A stretch of DNA of 64,000 nucleotides from Gammaproteobacteria bacterium 53_120_T64 (GTDB taxonomy: Bacteria > Pseudomonadota > Gammaproteobacteria > Pseudomonadales > Porticoccaceae), in contig MAAT01000067.1 in assembly GCA_002162815.1 (NCBI GenBank), positions 1 through 64,000 on the forward strand, written 5' to 3'. The notes beneath the pieces are model-generated. The model saw nothing but the letters and a program-made list of their open reading frames with translations, made no database searches and was not told the DNA's origin. This document shows positions 35,399 through 51,299 of the stretch, one piece after another. A program made the position numbers and the translations under genes. Position 1 is the first letter of the stretch. Every line of letters starts with the position of its first letter.

Positions 35399-35454
35399 AC
35401 TGATTCCTCGCGAAGCGCCGCTGCTTGTCTTGGCCAGAGGCGCTTCGCTATCGC

Positions 35455-36405
35455 TTAGCGCCCTGAGCGCTTATGAGCCTTGTTAATAAAGGTGCGCAGG
35501 TGGTCGCCCATGGCATCGATATCGGTCTCAAATTTTAGCAGCACGTTGAGGGTCTGCTTCACCATCGCCGGCTCGAGTTGCTCGCTGTGGAGGAGGAGCA
35601 GGGTTTTTGCCCAGTCGATGGTTTCTGAGATTGACGGCACTTTCTTGAGGTCAAGTTCCCTCACTTGTTGCACGAAGCTGACCACCTCTTTGCGCAGGGT
35701 GTCGGAGAGCTCGGGTACACGGCTGGTCAAAATACGGCTTTCGAGCTTTTCGTCCGGGTAGGGTACATATAGATGTAGGCAGCGCCGCTTGAGGGCATCA
35801 CTCAGCTCGCGGCTATTGTTACTGGTGAGAAAAACCAGCGGCTTAATTTTCGCCTTGATGGTGCCGAGCTCGGGAATGGAAACCTGAAATTCGGAGAGCA
35901 CTTCGAGCAGGAAGGCTTCAAACTCGGGGTCGGACTTGTCCACCTCATCAATTAGCAGTACACAGCCGAGTTCTTCGTGCAGCGCCTTATAAAGGGGGCG
36001 AGGCTCGAGGAAGGCTTCGGAGAAGAAGAGGTCGTCGTGGTTGTGGATACGTTCCATCGACTGTTCGAGCCCACTGGCACCCTCTAACAGTTCGCCGAGC
36101 TTGTCTTTTAAAAGCTGGGTATACAGCAGCTGCTTGGCGTATTTCCACTCGTACAGTGCCTTGGACTCATCCAACCCCTCGTAGCATTGCAGGCGAACTA
36201 AGGGCACGTCGAGGATTTGCGCGGTGGTCTTGGCGAGTTCGGTTTTACCGACACCAGCGGGACCTTCGACCATCACCGGTTTTTGTAGGTTGTGGGCGAT
36301 GTAGACACAGGTGGCGATCTGCTCGCTACAAATGTACTGAGCGGCTTCAAAGCGTTGCTGGATATCGTCTACCGAAGTGAATTTGTCTTTATAAAGTTCT
36401 TTCAT
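35455..36405 (-). CDS. MoxR-family AAA+ ATPase
   Basis: A 316-residue AAA+ protein with Walker A GPAGVGKT (residues 48-55), Walker B VLLIDEVDKSD (about 149-159) and sensor I FLTSNNSRELSDALKRRC. The MoxR class chaperones cofactor insertion, usually beside a VWA partner, exactly as here. An acyl-CoA dehydrogenase gene lies 37 bases upstream in the same direction, so the three are likely one operon. Confidence 0.9.
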   Translation of the reverse strand: MKELYKDKFTSVDDIQQRFEAAQYICSEQIATCVYIAHNLQKPVMVEGPAGVGKTELAKTTAQILDVPLVRLQCYEGLDESKALYEWKYAKQLLYTQLLKDKLGELLEGASGLEQSMERIHNHDDLFFSEAFLEPRPLYKALHEELGCVLLIDEVDKSDPEFEAFLLEVLSEFQVSIPELGTIKAKIKPLVFLTSNNSRELSDALKRRCLHLYVPYPDEKLESRILTSRVPELSDTLRKEVVSFVQQVRELDLKKVPSISETIDWAKTLLLLHSEQLEPAMVKQTLNVLLKFETDIDAMGDHLRTFINKAHKRSGR

Positions 36406-36442
36406 ACGGACTTTGTGCCTATTTTGGAAATTATTTTGGTGC

Positions 36443-37567
36443 CTAGCCTTTGTGGCCTTGGTCGAATAAAAAGCGCTCTGCTAGTGCGCTGGTGCGGGCG
36501 GCTGTAGCTTGGCGGCCAATATGGCTCAGTGTGTCTATATCGGCGGCGAGTGTGCAAAGGCCGGGATACTGGTCATGCCAATCGAGCAGGCTGGCTTGTA
36601 CTTGCCTCACAACAGACCGGAAACCAACAATAAGGGGTGTTAGGTCTGCTGAGATGTGTTGTTGATCGAGCTTGCTGGCAGCCAGTATACCCAATTCTTT
36701 GGCCGTTTCTGTCAGGCAGAGTAGCTCGCCGAGTTGATGCATGTCTAAGGACTTGTTGCAGGATGAACTGGCGCTCGCTAAATAGTCGAGTTGGGCTTGT
36801 ATCGCACCGGCGATGGGCGCCAGCATCAAGGTATCCTCGAGGGTGCGCATGGGTAGTGATATTTCGGTAAAGGCCCGGCCCGGCGTACCGATTAGTGTGT
36901 CGCTAGGGGTTCGACAGTCAGTAAAGACAATATTGCAGTGACTGCTCGGCGCTAAGCCCTTAATGTCGTGGGGAGGTAGGCGCTTTAGGCCCGGGCTATC
37001 GGTGGGTATAAGGAAGGCTGAGTAGTGTTTGCGCTGGCGATCCTGTTCGGTGATAGCCAGCACAATGAGCCGGTCAGCGTAGGGGCCGTGGCTAACAAAG
37101 GCTTTTTCGCCGTTGAGAATATAATGTCGCCCCTGTTTTATCGCCGTGCAGCTCAAGTGTTTGGGATGAGCGCCGACATCGGGCTCTGAAATGGCTAGGG
37201 CACAGAGGGAATCACCATTGAGAATGGCCTCAATATAATCGGAGTGGTTATTACTTAATGTACGTAGAAAATGACATTTAAGGAGCTGGCCGAGCCAAGT
37301 CATTGTCAGCCCAAGTGACTGGTGAGTACGAGTCATATTGTGGCCAGTATGGGCAATGGGATGGCAGGGCAGTTGGTTAAGGGCTTTGCCGGTGTCGCCA
37401 GTGCGAGGCATAAAGTGGTGAAGTAGGTTTTGGGCGGCGAGGTTTTTTAAGAACAGATTCGGCAGAGATATGGCCGGGGGCTTCTTTACCTCATGACTTT
37501 GCTTGGCTTGAGGGGGGGCGATGAAGGGCAAGAATTTAGCGATTGCTTGGATTGGTGGCTGTGTCAT
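36443..37567 (-). CDS. Acyl-CoA dehydrogenase family protein
   Basis: A 374-residue flavoprotein. Family motifs are SEPDVGAHPKHLSCTA (FAD-binding loop, normally TEPxxGSD) and YILNGEKAFVSHG; HCNIVFTDCRTP follows. The C-terminal helical domain is more divergent, and the usual catalytic glutamate position is not obvious to me, so it may be a specialised or inactive member. It is divergent from the monooxygenase subunit C gene across a 367-base gap. Confidence 0.76.
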   Translation of the reverse strand: MTQPPIQAIAKFLPFIAPPQAKQSHEVKKPPAISLPNLFLKNLAAQNLLHHFMPRTGDTGKALNQLPCHPIAHTGHNMTRTHQSLGLTMTWLGQLLKCHFLRTLSNNHSDYIEAILNGDSLCALAISEPDVGAHPKHLSCTAIKQGRHYILNGEKAFVSHGPYADRLIVLAITEQDRQRKHYSAFLIPTDSPGLKRLPPHDIKGLAPSSHCNIVFTDCRTPSDTLIGTPGRAFTEISLPMRTLEDTLMLAPIAGAIQAQLDYLASASSSCNKSLDMHQLGELLCLTETAKELGILAASKLDQQHISADLTPLIVGFRSVVRQVQASLLDWHDQYPGLCTLAADIDTLSHIGRQATAARTSALAERFLFDQGHKG

Positions 37568-37934: not shown

Positions 37935-38729
37935 ATGGCTAGAGAAAATACTCAATCCATTGCTTTGGACGGTAGCGCAGACAGCAAGGTTGCCGGGCAC
38001 TTTAAGCGCAATCGTTTTGCCTATGTATTTGGAGCAATTGTTATTGCTGCAGGTACTGCTATTCGAATTTATTTGGATACTATGGGTTTCACCGTTGGTA
38101 CCGATTACTACTCCGAGGAGTTTCAGAAGTACTGGATGCCTGTTCTCTACGGTGAGTTGATTCTCCTTAGTTCGTTTACCATTATTCTTTCTGTCTATTG
38201 CTGGATGACCCGCGAAACCGATGCCAGCAGTATTAGTAAAGAGTTGGAATTGAGCCGTTACTGGAAGTTGCTCGGTATCTTTACCGTGATGGGTATCTGG
38301 GCCGGTTGTGTTGCCTCTAACGCCGTTGAGTCCGACGCCGCTTGGCACCAGGTGACGATTCGGGATACCGATTTCACGCCAACTCACATTGTCATCTTCT
38401 ATTTTGCACTGCCATTTTTGACGGCCATGCTGATTCCTGCCTTTATCTGGACTCACACGCGTATCCCCGCCTACATGAACAAGATCTCCGTGCCTTTCCT
38501 GGCGGTTGTCTGCGGTATTTTGATGATTATGCCTAACTATGGCTTTAATGAGTGGGGTCACACCTTCTTCTACGCTGAAGAGTTGTTTGCGGCGCCGATC
38601 CACTACGGCTTTGTATTCTTAGGTTGGTCCTTGTTCTTCTTGGTGCCACTGGCGATGCAGCTGATTGGTAACATGGCTCGTCTGATTGCTGAGACCACAG
38701 CGGAAGATTACAATCCCGCAGCCGAGTAA
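37935..38729 (+). CDS. Copper membrane monooxygenase subunit C (PmoC/AmoC-like)
   Basis: Integral-membrane subunit of a CuMMO, 264 residues, about six helices. Both metal triads of PmoC are intact with the exact spacing of the methane enzyme: Asp134-x3-His138-x12-His151 (in SDAAWHQVTI and PTHIVIF) and Asn205-x3-His209-x13-His223 (NEWGH and PIHYGF). These correspond to the CuC and CuD sites. The ATG is chosen by family N-terminus and AGGGGT nine bases upstream. First gene of the C-A-B set; a hairpin with a T run separates it from subunit A. Confidence 0.95.
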   Translation: MARENTQSIALDGSADSKVAGHFKRNRFAYVFGAIVIAAGTAIRIYLDTMGFTVGTDYYSEEFQKYWMPVLYGELILLSSFTIILSVYCWMTRETDASSISKELELSRYWKLLGIFTVMGIWAGCVASNAVESDAAWHQVTIRDTDFTPTHIVIFYFALPFLTAMLIPAFIWTHTRIPAYMNKISVPFLAVVCGILMIMPNYGFNEWGHTFFYAEELFAAPIHYGFVFLGWSLFFLVPLAMQLIGNMARLIAETTAEDYNPAAE

Positions 38730-38753
38730 GTCTTAGTAGTTCTGCAGTATCCG

Positions 38754-38792
38754 ATTATCCCCGTAAGCTCTCAGTTTGCGGGGATAATTTTT
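38754..38792 (+). terminator. Hairpin with T run between monooxygenase subunits C and A
   Basis: ATTATCCCCG and CGGGGATAAT form a perfect 10-base stem with a 15-base loop followed by TTTTT. It could attenuate transcription or protect the 3' end of the subunit C message; comparable C-A intergenic hairpins are known in ammonia oxidisers. Confidence 0.75.
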
Positions 38793-38848
38793 CTCCAAAC
38801 CCTAAATCTATGCTTTGAAAATATTCTTTTTGTACGAGAGGTATCGTT

Positions 38849-39643
38849 ATGAGTGAAGCACAATCCACAGGGCTGTCAGACGTAGAAGTTAAGGCAAGGC
38901 AACTTGACCTTAAGTCTCTCGACAATCCGCGGGCAATGAAGTTATACCGTCGCTTTGACGGCATTATTATTCTTGTCTTATTTACCTTCCTGGTGCTCGG
39001 TGTGCAGATTCAGTTCACCCTGACTGCCGGTGACTGGGACTATTGGATCGATTGGCGAGATCGTCGTTGGTGGCCTCTAGTGGCACCCTTTTCGTTGTTG
39101 TTGTTTATCGCACCCTTTACCTACGGTATCTGGGAGCGCGTACGTCTGCCGATTATGGCAACAGCTGTCACGACCTTGTTGTGCCTGGTGTCCTGGTTGA
39201 GCCGCTACTTGAATTTTTACGAGTTCACCCACTTTCCCTTATCGTTTACCTTTCCGTCGACCTATATCGGTCTCGGCATATTGCTGGATTGTGCCTTGGC
39301 GATTAGCCGCAGTCTGATTGTTTCAACCTTGATCGGCGGCGGATTGTTTGGCGCCTTGGTCTACCCGATAAACTGGTCCTTTATGGCGCCTTACAAGGTG
39401 CCTGTCGAGTTTAACGGTATGTTGATGTCGGTAGCTGACATGATGGGTTATCAATACATTAGAACGACGACGCCTGAATACCTGCGCATTATCGAGGAAT
39501 CTACCCTGCGTACCTTTGGTGGGTCGGTGACGCCTTTGACCGCTGTGTTTTCGGCCCTGTGTGGGATGGTGGTTTATGCGGCCTTCCTGTGGGTTGGTTA
39601 CAAGATTAACGGCCTGGATAAATTCACCAAGCGCATTGTTTAG
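38849..39643 (+). CDS. Copper membrane monooxygenase subunit A (PmoA/AmoA-like)
   Basis: A 264-residue membrane subunit with about seven helices. GDWDYWIDWRDRRWWP (from residue 61) is the family signature, matching the region used for pmoA/amoA primers, with Tyr replacing the usual Phe in GDWDFW. The C-terminal MLMSVADMMGYQYIRT and TPEYLRI are clear PmoA/AmoA-family segments. Full length. Phylogenetically this is outside the classic methanotroph and ammonia-oxidiser sequences by my reading, closer to hydrocarbon types; a tree is needed. Confidence 0.94.
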   Translation: MSEAQSTGLSDVEVKARQLDLKSLDNPRAMKLYRRFDGIIILVLFTFLVLGVQIQFTLTAGDWDYWIDWRDRRWWPLVAPFSLLLFIAPFTYGIWERVRLPIMATAVTTLLCLVSWLSRYLNFYEFTHFPLSFTFPSTYIGLGILLDCALAISRSLIVSTLIGGGLFGALVYPINWSFMAPYKVPVEFNGMLMSVADMMGYQYIRTTTPEYLRIIEESTLRTFGGSVTPLTAVFSALCGMVVYAAFLWVGYKINGLDKFTKRIV

Positions 39644-39665
39644 ACGACGTTGGAGTAAGCAGTTA

Positions 39666-40916
39666 ATGAAAAGATTAATAGCGAGAAAAACAGGTCTCAC
39701 GGCGTTGCTGGCTGGCCTGGTGATGGTTTTACTGGCGGGCGATGTCATGGCCCACGGTGAGCGAGCGCAATTGGCGAGTATGCGTATGCGTACCGTCCAT
39801 TGGTTTGATACCAAGGTAGAGCCTTTGAATGTAAAGGTTGGCGATATCGTTACGGTAACGGGTAAGTTGGTGACCTCCGAGTGGTGGCCCAAGCATATGC
39901 CCAGCATTGAGGAGACGGTGTACCTGAATATCGGCGTGCCGGGTCCAACCTTTCTGAGGTTGCACTCTGAGGTTAATGGTGTGCCGATGATGCGCTCTAC
40001 AGCTTTCCCTTTGGGTAAAGTCTATGAGTACAAAACGGTACTGCGGGCACGTATTGCCGGCCGCTACCACGTTCACCCCATTTTAAATGTTAAGGATGCG
40101 GGTTCTCTGGTCGACAAGGGTACCTGGTTGGAAGTGGCGGAAGCTGACGATGGCGCGCCGTTCGTCAACGAAATTACCACTTTGACCGGTGAAACGATCA
40201 ACTTGGAAACCTACGGTTTGGATGGGGTTTTTACCTGGCACTTGATCTGGATAGCAATGGGTGTCGCCTACCTACTGTATTGGCTGATTCGTAAAGAGCT
40301 GTTTATACCGCGCTTTATTCGTATTCGTCATTTGGGCAGCGATCGGGCCAATGAGCTGATGACCAAGAAAGACTTTGTGGTGAGTAGTTTGTTTTTTACC
40401 GTGTCTTTGGCTTTGATACTCGGTGGTTACCTTTGGGCGGAACACAAATACCCCATTACCATTCCCTTGCAAACGGGCTTGGTAGAGGTTGAGCCGATCG
40501 ATATTCCGACGGGTGGTCTGGAGGTTGAGGTGGATCACGCGACTTATGATCTTGCGGGTCGCAGCTTAAGTATGCAGTTACAGTTGACCAACAATAGTGC
40601 GGGCCCACTGCGCATTGGTGAGTTCTTAACCGCCAACATTCGCTTCCTGAACCCGGATGTTAATGAGGGTGAGATTTACGAAGGCGAAGAAATGGTCTCT
40701 AAAGATGGTTTGACTGTCTCTGTCGATACGATTCAACCGGGTCAAACGGTCGATGTGGAGTTAGTTGCTTCGGACGCTTTGTGGGAGCAATATCGTATGA
40801 CCGGTTTGATTCATGATCCGGATAGCCGTTTTGCCGGTATGATCTTCTACTACGATGAGAACGGCGAACGATTTTTCCAGGAAGTGGGTGGCGCAGTACT
40901 CCCGAACTTCTTTTGA
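39666..40916 (+). CDS. Copper membrane monooxygenase subunit B (PmoB/AmoB-like)
   Basis: A 416-residue subunit with a signal peptide cleaved after GDVMA, exposing His30 as the mature N-terminus (HGERAQ). With His135 and His137 in GRYHVHPIL it rebuilds the CuB site, equivalent to His33/137/139 of the Methylococcus enzyme. His45 (RTVHWFD) matches one ligand of the bis-His site, but its partner is missing (GKLVTSEWWP). Two transmembrane helices follow near residues 190-208 and 230-252, then a second cupredoxin-like periplasmic domain. Start 22 bases after subunit A. Confidence 0.95.
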   Translation: MKRLIARKTGLTALLAGLVMVLLAGDVMAHGERAQLASMRMRTVHWFDTKVEPLNVKVGDIVTVTGKLVTSEWWPKHMPSIEETVYLNIGVPGPTFLRLHSEVNGVPMMRSTAFPLGKVYEYKTVLRARIAGRYHVHPILNVKDAGSLVDKGTWLEVAEADDGAPFVNEITTLTGETINLETYGLDGVFTWHLIWIAMGVAYLLYWLIRKELFIPRFIRIRHLGSDRANELMTKKDFVVSSLFFTVSLALILGGYLWAEHKYPITIPLQTGLVEVEPIDIPTGGLEVEVDHATYDLAGRSLSMQLQLTNNSAGPLRIGEFLTANIRFLNPDVNEGEIYEGEEMVSKDGLTVSVDTIQPGQTVDVELVASDALWEQYRMTGLIHDPDSRFAGMIFYYDENGERFFQEVGGAVLPNFF

Positions 40917-40954
40917 TTTAGAGCACTACACACTATAAAAATGAGGGTTGTTGG

Positions 40955-41599
40955 ATGTTGGCGAGACAGGTAGCACGAACTTTTCGATCTATAATTTCAA
41001 GTTTGATCATGGTTTGGGTGGCCTGTGGCGCCAGCACCGTATTTGCTCACGGGGGTGTGTCGGTAGAAGATGATGTATGTCTTATTAAGATCGATAGATA
41101 TAAAGCGCATTTTACCGGCTATCTACCTCGGGAGAGAGCAACCCAAGAGTTTTGTGAAGATATCCCGATAGCCACCCAAAGTATTTTTGTTATCGATTAC
41201 ATCAGTGATGAACTGCGTGAGATGGAGCTTGATTTTCGCGTGATCCGCGATGTCAATGAGCTCGGTGTTACCGCAGTTCTCGCCGATCTTGGTGGTGAAG
41301 AGGCCATAAAGGCGGCGACGGTTTACTACGCTGAGCCCAAGCGTTATCACAAAGGGGTGATGAATATTCGCCACACCTTTACGCAGAACGGCGGCTATAT
41401 TGGTATTGTGAATGCGAACCACTTGGAAACGGGCCTAAAATATACGTCGGTGTTTCCCTTTTCTGTGGGGCAGGTTAGCTACGCTAATTATATCCGTTAT
41501 TTCCTCGCCCTATTTGCGGCATGTGGCGTGTTTATTTATGCAGGCGGTCGCGGTCTTGTTTTTAAGGTTAAGCCACCACGTAGTGGAAGGCGAGCTTAG
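40955..41599 (+). CDS. Membrane-anchored periplasmic protein with HGG mature N-terminus, candidate monooxygenase accessory
   Basis: A 214-residue protein 38 bases after subunit B. Its signal peptide ends VFA, leaving mature His32-Gly-Gly, an N-terminal histidine like that of subunit B and of copper-brace proteins. Cys42 and Cys67 could pair; further His residues sit at 132, 140 and 156. A single C-terminal helix (about 178-198) with a basic tail would anchor it in the inner membrane facing the periplasm. The architecture resembles PmoD/AmoD-type accessory proteins but I see no clear sequence identity. A role in copper delivery is inference. Confidence 0.6.
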   Translation: MLARQVARTFRSIISSLIMVWVACGASTVFAHGGVSVEDDVCLIKIDRYKAHFTGYLPRERATQEFCEDIPIATQSIFVIDYISDELREMELDFRVIRDVNELGVTAVLADLGGEEAIKAATVYYAEPKRYHKGVMNIRHTFTQNGGYIGIVNANHLETGLKYTSVFPFSVGQVSYANYIRYFLALFAACGVFIYAGGRGLVFKVKPPRSGRRA

Positions 41600-41611
41600 T
41601 CAAGGGGCGGT

Positions 41612-43294
41612 ATGACACGGCTGTATCAAGTATTTATTTTATTATTCTTGCTGCTTATCTTTGCAGCATTGACACCCTGGCAGTGGTATCCCCGAGATTG
41701 GCGCGTTTGGTATGCGGATAATTTTGGGGCCAGTGCTTTTCAAGAGCAGGCGGCAACGATTCCTGCCATTTCTAGCGATAATACGGAAGAGGCTTGTCCG
41801 CCCGATATCAAGGGTTGGCGCAAGGCGCAAACGATCGCGGGCATTGATGTTTCGGCCTCTTCCAATTGCCTTGCCGACAATCCTCATGCGGTAGCGGCCT
41901 TTGTCAAGGGTACCAACAACGTCGGTCATATGACCTTGATGAAGTCTCGCTTGTCCCCCGATGCGGTGGTCAAAGGGCGAGATCTCGATGGCGATGGTGA
42001 CCCGGACGAGATTCATATTCGTCTCGAGGTGTTCGAGTTAAATGGTGGGTCGCCAGATCTCAATGTGCCAGTGACACAGTACGCCATTGCCCCCGGGGTG
42101 ATGCCGGGCCTTTGGGTGTTTGCACCAAAATCGGCCGGTATGTCAACCGAAAATTTTGAGTCGCTAGTGGCGCAGCCGGGTTTGCGTCTACCCTCTCCGG
42201 CGATACGTGTCGAGCAGGGCGACAAGGTTATTGTGACCCTCGAAAACACCCACTATATGCCCCATACCATTCACTTTCATGGCGTTGACCACCCTTTTCA
42301 AACGGCCAGTGGTGAGGGCAATGATGGGGTGCCAGTAATGAGTGAAATGCCGGTAATGCCGGGCCAGCAGCGCAGTTATGAAATGCAGCCGCGCCAAGCC
42401 GGCACCATGTTTTATCACTGCCATGTCGAGGTGCAGGCCCATGTCTTAATGGGTTTAAATGGTATGTTTGTGATCGAGGAAAATCGCCCGAATAACTGGG
42501 TGCAAACCTTTAATATTGGCGATGGTTTTGTGCGTCACAGTTCGGTGGCGGTGAAGGAAGAATACGACCGCGAATACGACCTGCACTATCAAGATCTCGA
42601 TAAAGAGCTGGGTGCGAAAATTCAGCAAACCAACGACCCGCGCCTGGTAACTCAGCAGATTCACCGCGAATACGATATTAGCCAAGCCGATTTTGAATAT
42701 TACACTCTCAATGGGCGCTCCTTTCCCTATACGGCAAAGGACTCGCTGATCGTCACCGCGCCGAATGAAAAGCTCAAGTTGCGAGTGCTCAACGGTGGTA
42801 GCGAGGGTGTGGCGATACACACCCACGGTCATAAAGTGACGATCAGTCACTACGATGGTGTTGAGCATCCCGAGCCCGCGCGCATTACCCGCGATGTGGT
42901 GTGGGTTGCCTCGGCTCAGCGAGTGGATCTGGAACTTTCCACCGTAGATGATGGCCTCCACAGCTATGGTGAGGGCGTTTGGCTAATGCACGATCATCAA
43001 GAGAGGGGCGTGACCACTGATGGTTTTGGCCCTGGTGGTAATGTCAGTGCCATTGTTTACGAGCGTTTCCTGCAGGATGACGGCTGGCCGATGACCTTCG
43101 GTATGGCTTGGAAAAATTTCCTGACACCGGGTTTTTACCAGCGTCAGGAAGATGGCTCTGGGGTGACAGCGTTGTTGCCGGGCGTAGAGGCTAGCGGCCC
43201 TTCGAGTTGGCGCTTGTTCGCCATGGCTATACTCGCCGGCCTATTTGTTGGGATCCTTATCAGCTGGATACTAAAGGGAAGGTCTAATGTTTAG
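41612..43294 (+). CDS. Membrane-anchored multicopper oxidase
   Basis: A 560-residue multicopper oxidase with helices at both ends (residues ~7-20 and ~534-552) and a periplasmic body. Copper motifs: HTIHFHG (218-224), HCHVEVQAHVLM (269-280) carrying a complete type-1 Cys-His-Met set, HTHGH (403-407), and HDH (460-462), where the usual cysteine is Asp. The type-1 site is therefore in the first, not the last, motif pair, unlike three-domain laccases. DLDGDGDPDE (124-133) looks like a calcium loop. It may oxidise Cu(I) or feed electrons; the gene overlaps the next by eight bases. Confidence 0.87.
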   Translation: MTRLYQVFILLFLLLIFAALTPWQWYPRDWRVWYADNFGASAFQEQAATIPAISSDNTEEACPPDIKGWRKAQTIAGIDVSASSNCLADNPHAVAAFVKGTNNVGHMTLMKSRLSPDAVVKGRDLDGDGDPDEIHIRLEVFELNGGSPDLNVPVTQYAIAPGVMPGLWVFAPKSAGMSTENFESLVAQPGLRLPSPAIRVEQGDKVIVTLENTHYMPHTIHFHGVDHPFQTASGEGNDGVPVMSEMPVMPGQQRSYEMQPRQAGTMFYHCHVEVQAHVLMGLNGMFVIEENRPNNWVQTFNIGDGFVRHSSVAVKEEYDREYDLHYQDLDKELGAKIQQTNDPRLVTQQIHREYDISQADFEYYTLNGRSFPYTAKDSLIVTAPNEKLKLRVLNGGSEGVAIHTHGHKVTISHYDGVEHPEPARITRDVVWVASAQRVDLELSTVDDGLHSYGEGVWLMHDHQERGVTTDGFGPGGNVSAIVYERFLQDDGWPMTFGMAWKNFLTPGFYQRQEDGSGVTALLPGVEASGPSSWRLFAMAILAGLFVGILISWILKGRSNV

Positions 43295-43952
43295 GGCCTG
43301 CACTCAGCGCCTATTATCGCCCTTGCTGGGGCTATTGATAAGCCTGCCGGGCTTTGCGGCCAGCAGCCACCAGCATCACATGCCGGGTATGGTAATGGAT
43401 GCTACGGGCATGGTGATGGGGGGTAATAGCGATCAGTTACCCGAGGACTGTCAGGCTATCTCTGCAGAATACGAGTTTACCGTGTTGGCGGGAACGCGTT
43501 TCGCCGAGCCGTATGCGGCGACAGCGTTTGGTTTTGATCAGCATCAATGGCAGGTTAAGCCTTGTAGTCGGATTACCATTAATTTCAAAAATGAAGATGA
43601 CGTGCGCCACCAGTGGATGCTCCACGGTTTGCCGAAGTATCTGTACGATCGAGGCATGTTTCATATGGAGGCCTCCGGTGGTTTTGCGCAAACCGGAACT
43701 TTTATTGTTCCGAGTGATAATAAAACCTACCTCGTGCATTGTGATATTGCCCAGCATATGGAGAAGGGTATGAAGGGGCAGTTAATTGTTGGCACTGGTA
43801 GCGGTGATCTTTGGAGTATCCCGGGCGTCACTGCAGATTTTCAGCGGGAAAGGGTGTCACTCGATAATGGTCAAAAAATAGGCTTGCTATTGTCGGCCCT
43901 ACTGGCAGCCCTTGCAGGTTTTATAACAATAAAAAAATTCGCCAAAAAGTAA
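43287..43952 (+). CDS. Membrane-anchored cupredoxin with His/Met-rich N-terminus
   Basis: A 221-residue plastocyanin-like blue-copper protein. After the signal peptide, a His/Met-rich stretch (SHQHHMPGMVMD) offers copper storage. The type-1 site is HQWMLHG (His108) plus C152-x4-H157-x4-M162 in HCDIAQHMEKGM. A C-terminal helix (about 197-214) anchors it. The start overlaps the multicopper oxidase, so they are made together, and the pair probably exchanges electrons or copper. Whether it reduces the monooxygenase is unknown. Confidence 0.84.
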   Translation: MFRACTQRLLSPLLGLLISLPGFAASSHQHHMPGMVMDATGMVMGGNSDQLPEDCQAISAEYEFTVLAGTRFAEPYAATAFGFDQHQWQVKPCSRITINFKNEDDVRHQWMLHGLPKYLYDRGMFHMEASGGFAQTGTFIVPSDNKTYLVHCDIAQHMEKGMKGQLIVGTGSGDLWSIPGVTADFQRERVSLDNGQKIGLLLSALLAALAGFITIKKFAKK

Positions 43953-44259
43953 CCTGTGGTCTGAATTGATGCTCCTTGGCTAGCCTTGACTCGCCATTGC
44001 TCGCGACTGTATCGATCTGACGCGCGACGGGTCTTGCCGCTAAAAAATCCTTTTTAATTCTGCGCTATTCTCTTAATTGTGTGTCAACGGGATGACATTG
44101 TTCTGGTCTTTTTATGGGTTTCCTTCTCTTAGAAGCTATTGAATTAGCAAGGCTTTTGGTCTCTTTATAAGCTTTATTCATGTGGAAGGAGTCACATAAT
44201 CATGATAGAGTCCGCGTCGAATTTTACTGCAATAAAAGTTACGCCTAAGGGGAAGAGAA
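43953..44259. other. Gap between copper genes and transporter gene
   Basis: About 300 bases. There is no clear terminator after the cupredoxin; a short self-complementary GGCTAGCC occurs. The gap probably holds the promoter of the transporter unit and the site AAGGGGA before its TTG start. Confidence 0.45.
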
Positions 44260-46686
44260 TTGGAGACTGCACGCTACCGTCTGTCGAGATATGTCATACA
44301 TCATCGTTGGGCATCATTGCTGGTTTTTCTGGCTTTGACTATTTTCTTTGCCGTAGGTATTAGTCGGGTTGAATTGAAAACGATCTTTTCCGATTTGTTA
44401 CCCAGTACGCATCCTTTTGTGCAAACTTATAAAGACCACCCTAACTTTGGTAACCCCCTGACCGTTACGGTGATGATCAAGCGCACCGATGGTGAGTCCA
44501 TTTATAACCCCGAAACCTTGCAAAAAGTTTGGGATATGACTCGCAATATCGATTTGATTGCCGGCGTCGATCACGACCAGATTCTCTCTATCACCACTGA
44601 AAAAGCCCGCTATGCTCAGGCGACGCCCTTTGGTATCGATAGTCAGCCGCTGATGGGTGACCACTCGCCACAGACCGAAGCGGAAATGGCTGAGTTTTTA
44701 GAGCGCGTCAAAAAATCACCGGGTAGCCGTGCCTTCCTTATCTCTCACGATGAAAAAGCGACCATTATTCAGGCGACCTTTATTGAACGTCTGCTCGATT
44801 ACGGCGTGGTGTTTAACGAAATTCAGGAAAAAATCATCGATGCTGAACGCGATGATGCCCACGAGATTCATGTTGCCGGGCAGCCAGTGTTGACGGGTTG
44901 GGTGTACTTCTATGAAAAACAAATGCTGCAGATTTTTGGCATAACAGGCGCGGCGCTGTTAATTTCATTATTCCTGTATATGCGCAATGTGGTTGGCATC
45001 GTTGTGCCAGTGGTGACCAGTGTGGTCGCTGCGATATGGGGCTTCGGTTTTGTGGGCTGGCTTGGCGACCCCATCGAACCACTGATTATGGTGGTGCCGA
45101 TATTGCTAGTCGCGCGTTCGTTTAGTCATGCGGTGCAGTTTATCGAGCGCTATTATGAAATTTACTATCACGTTCAGGATAAGAAAAAGTCGGCAGAGAT
45201 CTGCATGAGCGTGATGATGGCGCCTGGCATACTAGGGATTGTTACCGATGCCATCGGCCTGTTCTTGATTGCCATTGCACCGATACCGACCATGGAGCGT
45301 TTTGCCGTCTTTTGCGGATTCTGGGCTCTGATGCTGGTCCCCACTGGCGTATTCCTGACGCCCATCTTGTTATCAATGATGCCCAAGCCGAAAAACGTCA
45401 ACCAAATCATTGGTCTTGATGGCGATCATGCGCTTATTCATGCGGGCATCAAGCACATGTTGCAAAAGGTCAGCAAGCTAAGCTTTGGTCCCCCCGCAAA
45501 AATAACGACCGTCGTGGTTATTGTGCTGTCGGTCTTCGGCCTGTCAAAAATGCTCGAGTTAAAAATCGGCAACCCGGTAGCGGGCAGTAATCTGCTGTGG
45601 AGTGATTCAGAGTACAACGTCGCCATTGCCGAAATTAATAGTCACTTCCCGGGCTTGAACACCCTGGAGATTATTTTTGAAGTGAAAGAACAGACGCAGC
45701 AGCGCTTGCTCAAGCAGGCCGATCCCATCTTTAAGATGACGGAGCTGCAGCGCATCGTTGAGAGTAGTGACTTCCCACCGGTGGCAACGCTGTCGTTTGC
45801 CGATTATTTACCCGAGGCCAACCGTCTGTTCAGTGGCGGTAACCCGAAGTGGGCACCCTTGGATCACAGCGATATGGCGGTGCAGGCCGCCTCCGGTGCG
45901 GTGCTCTTTGGTACCAGTCCGAAGGCCTTTTCCCATGTCACCGACTTTGTACAGCAGAATGGTACGGTTTCTCTGTGGTATAAGGATAACAAGCAGGAAA
46001 CTGTCGATGCGGCCCTGGAATCTGTGCGTGCGGCCCTCGATGAAATTGGCATCGATCACGATAATTACCGGGTTCGTCTCGGCTCCGGTACGATCGCACT
46101 GCAGCAGTCGATTAACGATACCGTCGACCTCTACCAGTGGTACATACTTGGTGCCCTAAACCTGGTTATCTTGATCAGTTGTTCGTGGGCCTACCGCTCA
46201 TTAGTGGCGGGTGTTTTGCTTTTGATACCGGTCAATATGTCTAATGTTTTTCTGGCAATGTCAATGGTTTATATGGGTGTTGGCCTCGATGTCAATACGC
46301 TGCCAATTGCCGCCATCGGCATCGGTGTGGGTATCGATTATGGCATTTACCTGCTGAGTCGAATCTGTGAGGAATACCAGGGCTTTAAAGACTACGGCAA
46401 AGCCATCTACGCCGCCGTTGCCACCACCGGTAAGGCCATCTTCTTTACCGCGGCCATTGTCCTGATCGGCATCCTGCCCTGGTACTTTATGTCCGAGCTG
46501 AAGTTCCTCGCCGATATGGGGCTGCTGCTGGTGATGGTGATGTTGATCAATATGGTTATTGCCCTGATCGTCGTGCCGCTGTTGGTGTGGTTGATTAAGC
46601 CGAAGTTTGTTAGTTCGGAAGATCTTCTGGTCGGCGAAGGTGTCGATCTGTCGGAGTATGCAGGAGGGGAAGAATCCCTCAAGTAG
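44260..46686 (+). CDS. RND/MMPL-type transporter
   Basis: An 808-residue inner-membrane transporter with the duplicated RND layout: N-terminal helix, a large periplasmic domain, about five helices (residues ~225-375), a second periplasmic domain and five more (~620-790). GIGVGIDYGIYLLSRICEE is the typical proton-relay segment of MMPL/HAE2 proteins. These export hydrophobic lipids or sterol-like molecules. TTG start with AAGGGGA upstream. Its three downstream partners form a known linked set. Confidence 0.88.
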   Translation: METARYRLSRYVIHHRWASLLVFLALTIFFAVGISRVELKTIFSDLLPSTHPFVQTYKDHPNFGNPLTVTVMIKRTDGESIYNPETLQKVWDMTRNIDLIAGVDHDQILSITTEKARYAQATPFGIDSQPLMGDHSPQTEAEMAEFLERVKKSPGSRAFLISHDEKATIIQATFIERLLDYGVVFNEIQEKIIDAERDDAHEIHVAGQPVLTGWVYFYEKQMLQIFGITGAALLISLFLYMRNVVGIVVPVVTSVVAAIWGFGFVGWLGDPIEPLIMVVPILLVARSFSHAVQFIERYYEIYYHVQDKKKSAEICMSVMMAPGILGIVTDAIGLFLIAIAPIPTMERFAVFCGFWALMLVPTGVFLTPILLSMMPKPKNVNQIIGLDGDHALIHAGIKHMLQKVSKLSFGPPAKITTVVVIVLSVFGLSKMLELKIGNPVAGSNLLWSDSEYNVAIAEINSHFPGLNTLEIIFEVKEQTQQRLLKQADPIFKMTELQRIVESSDFPPVATLSFADYLPEANRLFSGGNPKWAPLDHSDMAVQAASGAVLFGTSPKAFSHVTDFVQQNGTVSLWYKDNKQETVDAALESVRAALDEIGIDHDNYRVRLGSGTIALQQSINDTVDLYQWYILGALNLVILISCSWAYRSLVAGVLLLIPVNMSNVFLAMSMVYMGVGLDVNTLPIAAIGIGVGIDYGIYLLSRICEEYQGFKDYGKAIYAAVATTGKAIFFTAAIVLIGILPWYFMSELKFLADMGLLLVMVMLINMVIALIVVPLLVWLIKPKFVSSEDLLVGEGVDLSEYAGGEESLK

Positions 46687-46724
46687 CGTGAATATGTCAG
46701 TGTTTTACAGGGTTTATAAAAAAT

Positions 46725-46751
46725 AGCCCACTAGTGTTTGTTATGTGGGCT
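46725..46751 (+). other. Intercistronic hairpin after RND gene
   Basis: AGCCCAC and GTGGGCT form a 7-base stem with a 13-base loop between the transporter and DUF1329 genes, with an A run before but no T run after. It may protect or process the mRNA. Confidence 0.4.
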
Positions 46752-46776
46752 GGAACTAGAATTAGGAGTATGGTTA

Positions 46777-48165
46777 ATGCACATTAAAAAGTATGATTTT
46801 GACTACAGCCGTCGGTTTTTTATGGACAAGATGGCCAAAGGCACCATGGGTGCAGGTGTTCTCACCTCATTGATGCCGTTGATCGGCAATACAGGTGATA
46901 TAAGTAAGGCCTACCCCGAAGAGCTGACCAATATTGAAGCTTTCACCAAAGGTAAGGTCAAAACCGGCGATATTATCGACGCGAACAATGTTGAATACAT
47001 TAAAGACTTAATCGACCCCGTCGCTTACCTGCAAATCACCCAAATGGGTCGCCGCATTCGTATAGCACCCACGACAACAGATGCCACAGAGTTATTCCCT
47101 AGGGATTATCTGGAGGCAACCTTGCGCAATCAGGGTAAGGGCGCTTTTGACGCCAACGGCAATGTTGTCCATAAGCTTGATGGCAAACCTTGGATTGGCG
47201 GTGCGGCTTTCCCCGACCCGCAAACAGGCCTTGAAGCCTTTGCCAATGTAACGATGAGCTGGGGTCGTCACGACACTGCTGTTTACGCCATTGAAGATAA
47301 TGATATTGGCCCCGACGGTGATATCGAATACTCCTACAACCTCGGTTGGTGTGAAAAGAACACCGTCGGCCTGGTCAGCAACCCCGATGGCCCCTATTGG
47401 GAAGGTCACGAAGATAAGTTGCGCTACCAGTCGGTTTGGTTTACGGCACCGAATGATGTTAAAGGCACCAGCTTCCTCAATATCTGGAAATACGATCAGC
47501 GCGAATTCCCCGATTTGTTTGGCTACCTGCCCGCCTTTAAACGCGTGCGTCGCTTCCCAACCAACCAGCGCTTTGAACCGTTGGTACCAGGTATTACTTT
47601 CTTCCTCTCTGATGCCTGGGGCGCTGGTGACCCCATGCTGACTTGGGGCAACTACAAGATTATTGGCCGTGGTCCCTTTCTGGGCTCTCAGTCAGGAACA
47701 TGGCAGGGCGATCAAGAAAATTGGTCGAAAGATGCAACTTTACACGGTGGTAAAAAGGGCCTTAACTTCTTTGAGGTTGACTTCCAGCTCTGCCCTGAAG
47801 TGCTCGTCATTGAAGCTGAGCCAGTTGGCTTCCCGCGTGCGCCAGTCAGCAAAAAGCGTATTTGGCTTGACGTGCGTAACATGGCACCTATTGGTTATGT
47901 AACCTACGACCGTCGTGGCGAGCTATGGCGTTCATTTGAGGTTGGCTATAGCCAGCAGAAGAAAGGTGACTTGGCCAACGTGGATGCTAAGGGTAATGCC
48001 GAGTGGTCCTGGTCCTACGTACATGCACATGACGTACAGACCAATCGCTTCTCGCGATTTAACCATGCTAAAAGTGTTAAAGGCGGCCTGCAAACGGCAT
48101 TTGATACCGAAGATGCCTACGACAAGTACCTGACCATTCAGGCTATTCGTCGTCTCGGTAGTTAA
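46777..48165 (+). CDS. DUF1329-family periplasmic protein with twin-arginine signal
   Basis: A 462-residue protein of the DUF1329 family, which has a LolB/LolA-like fold suited to hydrophobic cargo. Its N-terminus YSRRFFMDKMAKGTMGAG fits the Tat consensus (S-R-R-x-F followed by a modest hydrophobic stretch), so it is probably exported folded; most family members I know use Sec signals. AGGAG and the ATG at 46777 fix the start. Second gene of the RND-DUF1329-YCF48-DUF1302 set. Confidence 0.85.
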   Translation: MHIKKYDFDYSRRFFMDKMAKGTMGAGVLTSLMPLIGNTGDISKAYPEELTNIEAFTKGKVKTGDIIDANNVEYIKDLIDPVAYLQITQMGRRIRIAPTTTDATELFPRDYLEATLRNQGKGAFDANGNVVHKLDGKPWIGGAAFPDPQTGLEAFANVTMSWGRHDTAVYAIEDNDIGPDGDIEYSYNLGWCEKNTVGLVSNPDGPYWEGHEDKLRYQSVWFTAPNDVKGTSFLNIWKYDQREFPDLFGYLPAFKRVRRFPTNQRFEPLVPGITFFLSDAWGAGDPMLTWGNYKIIGRGPFLGSQSGTWQGDQENWSKDATLHGGKKGLNFFEVDFQLCPEVLVIEAEPVGFPRAPVSKKRIWLDVRNMAPIGYVTYDRRGELWRSFEVGYSQQKKGDLANVDAKGNAEWSWSYVHAHDVQTNRFSRFNHAKSVKGGLQTAFDTEDAYDKYLTIQAIRRLGS

Positions 48166-48185
48166 TTTAAAAAATCTAGACTGGA

Positions 48186-49172
48186 GTGCATGTGTTTAAT
48201 TTCAAATTGGTACGTCAATCAATACTAAGCGCTGCACTGTGCGCCGGCTTCTTGTCAGCCGGTGCCCTGGCTAGTGAGCCCCCCACGGGGGGCATGCTCG
48301 ACGTAGTGCATCAGGGCATTGTCCACGATGCACTTTACGATGTTTGTTTTCTCGGCCAGTCTGGGCTTGCCGTGGGTGTCGCAGGTTCAGTGTTGACCAC
48401 CGATGACGCCGGTTCTAGCTGGCAGAGTGGCGCCGTTGATGTGCCATATGCATTGCTAGGTGTCAGCTGTGGCCAGAAAGCCTCCATTGCCGTCGGGCAA
48501 GCGGGGCTAATTATGCGCAAAGAGGGTGATGCTGCCTGGGCTCAAGTCGATTCGGGTACCGACCAGCGCTTACTCTCCGTCAGTGCCAATGAGTCTGGAC
48601 TTGCCGTTATCGTTGGTGGCTTTGGCACCGTGTTGAAGTCTACCGATGCGGGTCAAACGTGGGCGCCCTTAAGTTTCGATTGGGAGGCCATTCTCAACGA
48701 TTTTTATGAGCCCCATGTCTATGACGTTAGCGTCGCTACTGACGGCATTATTACGTTGGTAGGTGAGTTCGATTTAGTGTTGCGTTCAGAAGATCAGGGT
48801 GAGACCTGGGCAACCGTCAACAAGGGCGATACATCGCTGTTTGCCCTGCACTACCGGGATGCCTCAACCGGCTTTTCGGTGGGACAGAACGGTAAGGTGG
48901 TGAAGACCGTTGACGGTGGTTTAACGTGGACGGTTTTGCCTGTACCGACGACAGAAAACCTACTGGATGTCTGGTCTTCAGGCAGTCAGGTCTTAGTCAC
49001 CGGTATTCGAACCCTGTTGCGCAGTCGCGACGATGGCCTTAATTGGGAAGTGATTACCGAGGGTGATGTCAGTGTTCAGTGGTATCAGGCCATTGAGGGT
49101 GTTGTCGGTGAGGCAGGTACCGATAGTGTCGTAATGGTTGGCCATTCGGGTCGTGTTATTAATATCAAATAG
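48186..49172 (+). CDS. YCF48-like beta-propeller protein
   Basis: A 328-residue secreted protein: signal peptide ending GALASEP, then repeated propeller blades such as VLTTDDAGSSWQ, VLKSTDAGQTWAPL, VLRSEDQGETWATV and VVKTVDGGLTWTVL, the BNR/YCF48 (PF14870) pattern. Plant HCF136/Ycf48 assists photosystem II assembly, but in this gene set the role is more likely a periplasmic scaffold in hydrophobic-compound transport. The GTG at 48192 is an alternative start with better spacing from GGAG. Confidence 0.82.
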   Translation: MHVFNFKLVRQSILSAALCAGFLSAGALASEPPTGGMLDVVHQGIVHDALYDVCFLGQSGLAVGVAGSVLTTDDAGSSWQSGAVDVPYALLGVSCGQKASIAVGQAGLIMRKEGDAAWAQVDSGTDQRLLSVSANESGLAVIVGGFGTVLKSTDAGQTWAPLSFDWEAILNDFYEPHVYDVSVATDGIITLVGEFDLVLRSEDQGETWATVNKGDTSLFALHYRDASTGFSVGQNGKVVKTVDGGLTWTVLPVPTTENLLDVWSSGSQVLVTGIRTLLRSRDDGLNWEVITEGDVSVQWYQAIEGVVGEAGTDSVVMVGHSGRVINIK

Positions 49173-49207
49173 TCTTGTCCGATCAAAAAATTCTAATGAG
49201 GTGCTAG

Positions 49208-49315
49208 CGTGGCGCAATGCCACGTGACGCCCAAGCGGTAGTTAATTTATAACGCCATATTTACAGCCCTATTAGGGCTGTCACGAGTTTTTGGGCGCGT
49301 CTTTTGCGCCTACTC
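49208..49315 (+). other. Cluster of hairpins upstream of DUF1302
   Basis: Three short dyads lie in the 186-base gap: CGTGGC/GCCACG (49208-49224), ACAGCCCT/AGGGCTGT (49263-49281) and GGCGC/GCGCC further on. None has a clean T run. They may separate the outer-membrane gene from upstream transcription or stabilise its message. Confidence 0.45.
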
Positions 49316-49358
49316 GTTATCGCATATTAATTATAAATTTTTCATTAGGAGGTTGGGT

Positions 49359-51299
49359 ATGAAGTATTCTTTAAGGGGTGCTGGCTTGCTGGCGCTGGCC
49401 GCGACACCGCTAGTAACACCGGTGGCATCGGCATTTGACTACACGGTTTCGGGTTTTATTCGCCAGGAAATGGCCTATAAGCTCAACAATAACGAGAACC
49501 CTAATTTACCGGGTGGCAATAGATTTAACGGACGAGATTATGTCACTAAGGGTAAATTGCTACCCCAAGGGCAAGTGATAAATAGTCGTAAGGATCGTTC
49601 GACAAATAACGATTGGAATGTCTTTGCTACAAAATCTGAAATTGATGTTAGTTTTAATTTCACTAGAAATCTCAGTGGCTTTGTTAAATTCCGCGGTTAC
49701 TACCAGCCCGACACATTTGATTTAGTTGACAAAAGTGGTTTTGTTGATGGTGACGGGGGCAAGCCCGATCTTTGGGGTGTGCCCAATCATGGTCGAGAGG
49801 CTACGCACCTGTCTTATAGTGACAATGATTACATGCTCGATATACCATCGCTGTATTTAGACTATGCTAAGGGGCCGTTGTGGGTTCGTATTGGCCAGCA
49901 GCAAATAGCCTGGGGTGAGTCGCTCTTTTTCCGGGTTGCCGATATGGCGAATGGCCTGGACTTCCGACGTCATTTTATCTTTGACTACGGGCCTGAAGAG
50001 TATGCCGATGAGCGTTTAGCTTCGCCCGGTATTCGCGCCAGTTATCAGCTCGACCAAAATTGGGAGCTTGAAGTCTTTGCGCAGATGTTCCAGCCCTCAG
50101 TGCTACCGACCAATTACTCGCCATACAATTTGATTCAAAGCGGATTCAATATGAATCAAGGCTATGAAGAGGGCTTCGATAAAGTCGATGATCAAATTAA
50201 TGGTGGTATTCGTCTACAGGGTCAAAACTTAGGTGAAGATGGCAGCTGGGGAGTGCAATTTTATGCAATTGCACGTCATAGCCCAACGCCGCTATTTACC
50301 CTCTCTGAATCCGGTGTGCCGAATGCGGCTTTTGGAGATCCGGTACTGGATCCTCAGGGCTTGGGCTTCGCTACCCAGCCTTTTATCTATGAACCCGGTG
50401 GCAAGGCTGGCACCGCCAGTCCTGATGAGTGGTTTCACAACGCCGCTATCGCTGGCTCGGATGGCCTCGATACCATCAACGGTTTGATAAACGACTTCGC
50501 CTGGATCAAAGGCTTCGCCGAGATCGGTTTAGGTATGTCGCCCGATGCCAACGGGGATTATCTGACCAGTATAAATGGCGATGGGCCCAATGGCATCAAT
50601 GGCACGGACTTCCTCGAGCTGTTTTGGCAGGCCGGTGTTCCAGGTGCTGTTACTCCTGAGGGCGGTGAGGCCGCGCTCAACCTTGCTCTGGGCGGTAATG
50701 CCTTAAGTGGAAATATGCGGGTGCGCTACGCCGCCGAAAACGTTTTCGGCTTTGGGGTGAATCATATTTTTTATGCTGAAGAAGACTCCTTCCTCGATCA
50801 GTTGGTCGTTCGTTTTGAGGCCAGCTATATACCCGATAGAAAGTGGACCAATAATCTTCGTCGCGATTATATTGAGGCAGATGATGTGCTGGCCAGCGTT
50901 GTATTTGAAAAATACCAGCGTTTCAGTAATGCTTTTCCGGCCACCTTCTTGATCTTTGAGTATATGTACCGCAAGGAGAGTGACTTGTTAGAGCGTCACC
51001 TTAGCGGGCTTGGCGCTAGTGCGACCAAGCGCCCGGGTGGTGGTGAGCAGGATCGTGGTTGGCATGGTGTTGTTCTCGCTTTTCAGCAGCCTTTTCCAGG
51101 TTTAAAGTGGCGTATCGATGGCTCTATTCTCTACGATCTTGAGGGTGGTTATTCGATACAGCCCTCGGTTCGCTATAAGCCTAGTGGAGATTGGACTGTT
51201 GAAGCCTTTGCTAACTTTATTGATGGTGGAACTGATGATTCACTGGGCGTATTTGACTGGTCTGATGATTTGACCTTTCGAATCACCTATCAATTCTGA
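49359..51299 (+). CDS. DUF1302-family outer-membrane protein
   Basis: A 646-residue protein with a signal peptide (ending VTPVASAFDY), then many aromatic, amphipathic strands and a final FRITYQF, a beta-barrel-type C-terminus. It belongs to DUF1302, predicted outer-membrane channels paired with DUF1329 in clusters for PHA, sterol or hydrocarbon use. Start fixed by AGGAGG and ATG 49359; TTG 49353 would also read. It ends the island; a strong terminator follows. Confidence 0.88.
   Translation: MKYSLRGAGLLALAATPLVTPVASAFDYTVSGFIRQEMAYKLNNNENPNLPGGNRFNGRDYVTKGKLLPQGQVINSRKDRSTNNDWNVFATKSEIDVSFNFTRNLSGFVKFRGYYQPDTFDLVDKSGFVDGDGGKPDLWGVPNHGREATHLSYSDNDYMLDIPSLYLDYAKGPLWVRIGQQQIAWGESLFFRVADMANGLDFRRHFIFDYGPEEYADERLASPGIRASYQLDQNWELEVFAQMFQPSVLPTNYSPYNLIQSGFNMNQGYEEGFDKVDDQINGGIRLQGQNLGEDGSWGVQFYAIARHSPTPLFTLSESGVPNAAFGDPVLDPQGLGFATQPFIYEPGGKAGTASPDEWFHNAAIAGSDGLDTINGLINDFAWIKGFAEIGLGMSPDANGDYLTSINGDGPNGINGTDFLELFWQAGVPGAVTPEGGEAALNLALGGNALSGNMRVRYAAENVFGFGVNHIFYAEEDSFLDQLVVRFEASYIPDRKWTNNLRRDYIEADDVLASVVFEKYQRFSNAFPATFLIFEYMYRKESDLLERHLSGLGASATKRPGGGEQDRGWHGVVLAFQQPFPGLKWRIDGSILYDLEGGYSIQPSVRYKPSGDWTVEAFANFIDGGTDDSLGVFDWSDDLTFRITYQF

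Follow-up and report, generated by a model that had tools for sequence, protein, structure and literature searches.

A ten-gene island in the genome of the uncultured marine Gammaproteobacteria bacterium 53_120_T64 (Porticoccaceae) is best read, with a probability of roughly 0.58, as a hydrocarbon-type copper membrane monooxygenase (CuMMO) system that acts on small cyclic or branched hydrocarbons and is joined to an AmeABCD-type transporter. Enzymes of this superfamily are responsible for the oxidation of methane and ammonia, and the common view is that they act on gases. The island lies at positions 37935-51299 of the first 64,000 nucleotides of contig MAAT01000067.1 (assembly GCA_002162815.1), and this whole stretch is referred to as the window. 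The identity of the genes, the conservation of metal ligands, the position of the enzyme in the CuMMO tree, its linkage to the transporter, the pairing of the same transport cassette with cytochrome P450 and Baeyer-Villiger monooxygenase (BVMO) genes in relatives, and the enrichment of BVMOs in CuMMO-bearing genomes were all observed directly.

A check of open reading frames (ORFs) found ten open genes, all on the plus strand, in the order xmoC-xmoA-xmoB-xmoD-multicopper oxidase-cupredoxin-RND-DUF1329-YCF48-like-DUF1302. Coordinates, strand and Pfam matches agree with the ten co-oriented genes and named families of a first-pass annotation of this DNA:

37935..38729 (+): xmoC, CuMMO subunit C; Pfam AmoC 5.9e-59; copper-ligand patterns aligned to solved PmoC
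38849..39643 (+): xmoA, CuMMO subunit A; Pfam AMO 5.9e-74
39669..40916 (+): xmoB, CuMMO subunit B; Pfam Monooxygenase_B 1.8e-120; ligands aligned to solved PmoB
40955..41599 (+): xmoD, PmoD-type copper protein; PDB 6cpd E=1.3e-15; predicted model, fold match and motif alignment
41612..43294 (+): multicopper oxidase, 560 aa; Pfam Cu-oxidase_3 1.4e-25
43287..43952 (+): membrane-anchored cupredoxin-like protein with a type-1-copper-like HCDIAQHMEKGM motif; Pfam Cu-oxidase_2 3.2e-6
44260..46686 (+): RND/MMPL transporter, HAE3-like (AmeD-like); Pfam MMPL 2.5e-27; conserved beside the CuMMO
46738..48165 (+): DUF1329 periplasmic LolA-like protein (AmeB-like); Pfam DUF1329 2.9e-62
48186..49172 (+): YCF48-like periplasmic beta-propeller (AmeC-like); Pfam PSII_BNR 3.8e-18
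49353..51299 (+): DUF1302 outer-membrane protein (AmeA-like); Pfam DUF1302 2.8e-26

The start of xmoB is placed at the Met that precedes its signal peptide, the longest possible frame opening at 39561, and the DUF1329 protein carries a Tat-like SRRFFM motif that places its likely start near 46777. Spacing from xmoC through the cupredoxin gene is -8 to 119 bp, followed by a gap of 307 bp before the RND gene and later gaps of 51, 20 and 180 bp. In the 307-bp gap, where a regulatory border is possible, a consensus scan listed no intrinsic terminator; the promoter scan performed at chance level and was not used as evidence.

Identity and Phylogeny of the Monooxygenase

The genes for subunits C, A and B stand side by side, as in other CuMMOs. 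In alignments to particulate methane monooxygenase (pMMO), XmoB retains the copper ligands of PmoB (the His at the mature N-terminus and the HVH pair), and XmoC those of PmoC, in the patterns D-x3-H-x12-H and N-x3-H-x13-H. Since these ligands align with those of solved pMMO, the enzyme looks functional, and the complete CuMMO with copper accessory proteins proposed at first pass is upheld. XmoA matches that of Gammaproteobacteria bacterium 54_18_T64 at 97%.

A maximum-likelihood tree was built from concatenated C, A and B subunits. It is smaller than a quick tree of 61 rows, which it replaced because rows from ammonia-oxidizing bacteria and pxm rows fell near the base among long branches; its single ammonia-oxidizer-like reference is L051 (A subunit against solved AMO, E=2e-170), and its references are without validated ethane or ethylene sequences. 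The Porticoccaceae CuMMOs are monophyletic with 100/100 support, their stem measuring about one change per site, and the island enzyme is a member of this single clade. Together with sequences from Nevskiaceae, Comamonadaceae-type bacteria and North Pond, it is nested in a larger 100/100 hydrocarbon-type clade, while Methylococcales pmo, ammonia-oxidizer-like amo, pxm and Cycloclasticus all lie outside it. As it stands, the tree of aligned subunits rules out a pmo or amo placement but names no substrate.

That the enzyme is an ammonia or methane monooxygenase is therefore barely credible. Subunit B does pass the NCBI bacterial AmoB cut-off (468 vs 336 bits), but A and C score below the NCBIfam AMO and PMO equivalog cut-offs, and on these scores and the tree an AMO or pMMO identity was rejected. 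Searches by protein family across the genome (93.6% complete) returned no pyrroloquinoline quinone (PQQ) methanol/ethanol dehydrogenase above cut-off, and one of the seven genomes of the genus has any; the lack of a methanol dehydrogenase, first noted for the window, thus extends to the genome. The hydroxylamine oxidoreductase (HAO) missing from the window was likewise not found as an HAO-type cytochrome genome-wide, although this is a weak negative, as no control matched either. The first-pass view of methane and ammonia as less likely main substrates is borne out, the concatenated subunits clustering inside neither amo nor methanotroph pmo.

A separate observation concerns a plasmid of Methylomagnum ishizawai (pRS11DPr1, L212), which carries a CuMMO operon in the A-B-C order of pxm that is annotated as amo.

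Linkage of Monooxygenase and Transporter

CuMMO genes occur in 16 of 112 Porticoccaceae genomes and three of 14 genera, including all seven genomes of the source genus, where the order C-A-B-D-multicopper oxidase-cupredoxin-RND is kept in every one. A second genus has the same order followed by YCF48-DUF1329-DUF1302 where contigs allow. In the third, the order is C-A-B-D-RND-YCF48, with the multicopper oxidase and cupredoxin genes in only one of three genomes, and the junction between RND and CuMMO genes is kept even where these two have been lost (L029, L030). The RND gene follows the CuMMO genes wherever contigs are long enough. A close RND is present in all 16 CuMMO-bearing genomes (71-100% identity) and in four of the 94 CuMMO-less ones (54-68% identity), with a Fisher p of 7e-16 that is not corrected for kinship, and the CuMMO-linked RNDs form one clade (support 99). 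Chance adjacency was ruled out, as the arrangement is kept in three genera. The RND-DUF1329-YCF48-DUF1302 set, put forward earlier as a partner of the enzyme, is accordingly conserved within the Porticoccaceae. Elsewhere it was near a CuMMO in none of 65 loci (10 kb flanks, some contigs being short). A routine lack of the module from homologous islands, which the first-pass annotation held to speak against the coupling, is thus true outside the family and false inside it.

Five of the seven contigs from the source genus end just after, or within, the RND gene. A duplicated RND was considered as the cause and discarded, the genome of 53_120_T64 having one close RND. It does have two tandem DUF1302-DUF1329 pairs that are 74-76% and 88-89% identical to those of the island (C76 at about 23.8-31.3 kb, L253; and C58, L255), giving at least three closely related pairs, and 12 DUF1329 genes in all. 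The contig ends are probably due to near-identical pairs of this kind elsewhere in the genome.

Upstream of the island lie divergent genes that are kept across the genus, and whose membership of the island is uncertain:

34022..37567 (-): VWA/CoxE, MoxR ATPase and acyl-CoA-dehydrogenase-like gene; divergent neighbors (neighborhood comparison and Pfam)

A VWA-MoxR pair is also found divergently upstream of hydrocarbon CuMMO loci in Mycolicibacterium and Rhodococcus (L208, L213), there with a methanol-type dehydrogenase.

Copper Accessory Proteins

The anchored protein described at first pass as HGG-type is a PmoD homolog (6cpd, E=1.3e-15), and its predicted model superimposes on 6cpd with a TM score of 0.86 by target length. 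XmoD has a signal peptide, a predicted mature N-terminus of HGG, a Cx9HxnC motif and a C-terminal membrane helix, and shares with PmoD/AmoD proteins sequence and fold homology, two conserved Cys and proximity to CuMMO genes. The segment CLIKIDRYKAH corresponds to Cx9H and not to the CuA-type Cx7MxHxnC. Proteins of the Cx9HxnC class bind copper without forming CuA (PMC6189053). An electron relay through a CuA site in XmoD was considered and is unsupported, the ligand Met being absent, and for the same reason the copper relay of the first-pass annotation is unproven as a chain that would carry electrons or copper. All 28 loci examined (hydrocarbon-type XmoD with a readable N-terminus) have HGG directly after a stretch resembling a signal peptide, and His1 is invariant in the alignment, whose rows were pre-selected for HGG. 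Judged from these residues, the mature N-terminal His of XmoD could, as in PmoB, add a copper ligand. The nearest solved chains to the multicopper oxidase are 3g5w and 2zwn (multicopper oxidase type 1; two-domain laccase type), and the cupredoxin-like protein has no solved relative by sequence.

Transport Cassette

The best NCBIfam model for the RND protein is TIGR00921 (HAE3), at 165.6 bits and below the cut-off of 351.9. As in AmeABCD, RND, DUF1329, YCF48/COG4447 and DUF1302 genes make up one cassette. AmeABCD is a monoterpene-tolerance system of Castellaniella defragrans, the deletion of which lowers monoterpene tolerance and leads to Nile Red accumulation (PMC6394551).

In the CuMMO-less sister genus g6 the cassette occurs in the same order directly before genes for a short-chain dehydrogenase/reductase (SDR), a P450, a BVMO and a small DUF protein, and further downstream come genes for a ferredoxin reductase and a hydrolase, another DUF1329 gene and one for a CoA ligase; apart from the homologs of island genes, these names are based on sequence motifs and not on a Pfam scan. 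The eight-gene cluster RND-DUF1329-YCF48-DUF1302-SDR-P450-BVMO-DUF is common to two families (L210 in G038, contig C6; L244 in G382, contig C8), in both cases without a CuMMO, and has the look of a cyclic hydrocarbon or terpenoid pathway. In a third family the cassette comes after acyl-CoA-dehydrogenase-like, thiolase-like and ligase-like genes. Because its catabolic neighbors vary in this way across families, the cassette looks like an exchangeable module attached to the catabolism of hydrophobic, often ring-containing compounds. In a phenanthrene-degrading bacterium, nanopod vesicles also contain DUF1302 and DUF1329 proteins, the genes for which are part of its phenanthrene cluster (PMC3110197).

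Substrate

BVMOs convert cyclic ketones to lactones. With the BVMO of g6 as query (E below 1e-60, genomes of the family), 5-13 BVMO-like genes were found in each of the 16 CuMMO-bearing genomes and 0-2 in 93 of the 94 others (Fisher p ~2e-18, inflated by kinship), the sole CuMMO-less genome above two being G062, from a CuMMO genus. Within the genome of 53_120_T64 they are mostly isolated genes, forming no clear second pathway operon. This enrichment, together with the position of the cassette beside P450 and BVMO genes in CuMMO-less relatives, argues for cyclic or branched hydrocarbons. The BVMO counts, the lack of a PQQ methanol dehydrogenase and the study by Arrington et al. 2023 (Environ Microbiol 25:2958-2971, doi 10.1111/1462-2920.16474), whose title has methylated cycloalkanes fueling a Porticoccaceae genus, point to methylated cycloalkanes or similar rings as the most likely substrates, n-alkanes, terpenoids and C2-C4 gases being possible. 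The hydrocarbon-oxidizing system proposed at first pass is partly supported, and the evidence favors ring-shaped or branched compounds over the ethane-butane range.

Elsewhere in the window, a 598-aa flavoprotein resembling flavin-containing monooxygenases and BVMOs is encoded at 2509-4305 (-), a few kb from a cyclase-family gene, and has a 45% homolog elsewhere in the genome.

Proposed Mechanism and Alternatives

XmoCAB in the inner membrane would hydroxylate a small cyclic or branched hydrocarbon, for example methylcyclohexane or methylcyclopentane, to the alcohol, with XmoD, the multicopper oxidase and the cupredoxin serving in copper loading and/or electron passage at the periplasmic face. 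The alcohol would then be oxidized to a ketone, the ring opened by one of the several genomic BVMOs, and the product passed into acyl-CoA metabolism. The cassette would act as an AmeABCD-type trans-envelope transporter. Its cargo, the hydrophobic substrate or an intermediate that is toxic, would pass through the periplasm and outer membrane, and the most probable purpose is to limit membrane toxicity. Of this scheme, we infer the substrate, the order of the pathway, the direction of transport and co-expression. Somewhat short of even odds, and so held tentatively, is the further idea that a ring-hydrocarbon CuMMO and its own Ame-type transporter form one unit, that evolution has paired the cassette with either P450-BVMO enzymes or a CuMMO, and that oxidation is coupled to detoxification or uptake.

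Several points weigh against this picture. The CuMMOs whose activity has been measured are known to work on small molecules, namely acetone and gases no larger than butane, and a ring would be a large step. BVMOs take part in the breakdown of acetone, terpenes and steroids as well, and no BVMO adjoins the CuMMO. The transporter and BVMO associations span three related genera rather than many independent events, and G062, from a genus with CuMMO carriers, has seven BVMOs and a 54% RND but no CuMMO. Finally, Pseudomonas putida cannot do without its DUF1302/DUF1329 proteins and their RND and periplasmic partners when it grows on Tween 20 (PMC10866462), a requirement that speaks for uptake no less than for export. 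Import of the hydrocarbon, with uptake coupled to oxidation, is hence a possibility of some substance, if one that we doubt, and it fits with a genome in which one close RND is matched by three or more closely related DUF1302-DUF1329 pairs. Light hydrocarbons, however, diffuse through membranes, and AmeABCD acts as an exporter (PMC6394551). We lean, with low confidence, towards export of the substrate or of toxic intermediates.

It is unlikely that the enzyme oxidizes gaseous C2-C4 alkanes or alkenes, like the particulate hydrocarbon monooxygenases (pHMO) and EMO of Haliea, mycobacteria and Cycloclasticus, with the transporter adjacent by coincidence. Propane oxidation, by way of acetone, is another route in which BVMOs can take part. 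In marine bacteria that use ethylene, the pmo-like genes stand apart from pmo/amo and near ethane-oxidizer types (PMC4036023), and the Cycloclasticus pHMO is expressed on n-pentane (PMC12510462). Set against these are the long stem of the Porticoccaceae clade, the 5-13 BVMOs of the CuMMO-bearing genomes, and a cassette that adjoins the CuMMO wherever contigs allow, when gases would need no envelope transporter. An epoxyalkane transferase gene, belonging to the ethylene pathway, was not noticed in the neighborhoods read, no genome-wide search having been made. Quite unlikely, too, is a pair of independent adjacent operons, one for the CuMMO and copper proteins and the other a separately regulated transporter for other lipophilic compounds. 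The 307 bp before the RND gene would allow for it; the cassette occurs without a CuMMO in g6, Methylibium petroleiphilum PM1 and other families, CuMMO-D-multicopper oxidase-cupredoxin sets occur elsewhere without the cassette, and in G063 two unrelated genes set the DUF1302 and DUF1329 genes apart from the rest. The junction of RND and CuMMO is nevertheless conserved over three genera, even after loss of the multicopper oxidase and cupredoxin genes, the gap has no listed terminator, and the CuMMO-linked RNDs are monophyletic.

If the hydrocarbon-type system with its AmeABCD-type transporter is as proposed, a CuMMO clade for dissolved ring hydrocarbons with a conserved pump would add to the substrates handled by the superfamily, provide a marker by which to follow the removal of cycloalkanes at seeps and spills, and offer a natural test for the role of the widespread, unexplained DUF1329, DUF1302 and YCF48 proteins.

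Comparison with Known Systems

The CuMMO, PmoD, multicopper oxidase and Ame-type cassette are all of known kinds. The Porticoccaceae of the Arrington study are reportedly Ca. Reddybacter, said to have a novel clade of particulate hydrocarbon monooxygenase that was proposed for methylcyclohexane and methylcyclopentane. Ca. Reddybacter shares its family with the island host, and the Porticoccaceae CuMMO clade has probably been published already. The first-pass suggestion that the combination is undescribed is weakened: the clade was probably published in 2023 and the kind of transporter has been described (AmeABCD, PMC6394551), but in the literature no paper was found to mention a CuMMO along with DUF1329/DUF1302. 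The family-wide coupling of CuMMO and transporter, and the apparent swap of the cassette between P450-BVMO and CuMMO partners, may be new.

The CuMMO loci of Solimonas, Panacagrimonas, Polycyclovorans, Polaromonas and North Pond metagenome-assembled genomes have the same C-A-B genes, usually XmoD and in several cases the multicopper oxidase and cupredoxin. They are about 36-66% identical and fall in the larger clade with the island, but in distinct sub-clades, and are without the transport cassette in 10 kb flanks. XmoD shares its fold, family and association with CuMMO genes with PmoD of Methylocystis sp. ATCC 49242 Rockwell (6cpd, PMC6189053), and differs in having Cx9HxnC in place of Cx7MxHxnC, so that no CuA is expected, and a predicted mature N-terminal His-Gly-Gly.

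At the level of components, AmeABCD and the island cassette are alike in having DUF1302, DUF1329, YCF48/COG4447 and an RND, HAE3-like in the island (PMC6394551), and each is tied to a catabolic locus for hydrophobic rings, a probable one in the island. They differ in gene order, with ameABC upstream of ameD in Castellaniella and RND first in the island, and in partner, monoterpene enzymes in the one and a CuMMO in the other. The megaplasmid RPME01 of Methylibium petroleiphilum PM1 carries the four cassette genes in the exact order of the island, with an RND that is 56% identical; their neighbors are an NTF2-like gene and one for an FAD oxidoreductase with distant likeness to BVMOs. This locus has no CuMMO, and it holds a second, inverted copy of the cassette along with insertion sequences.

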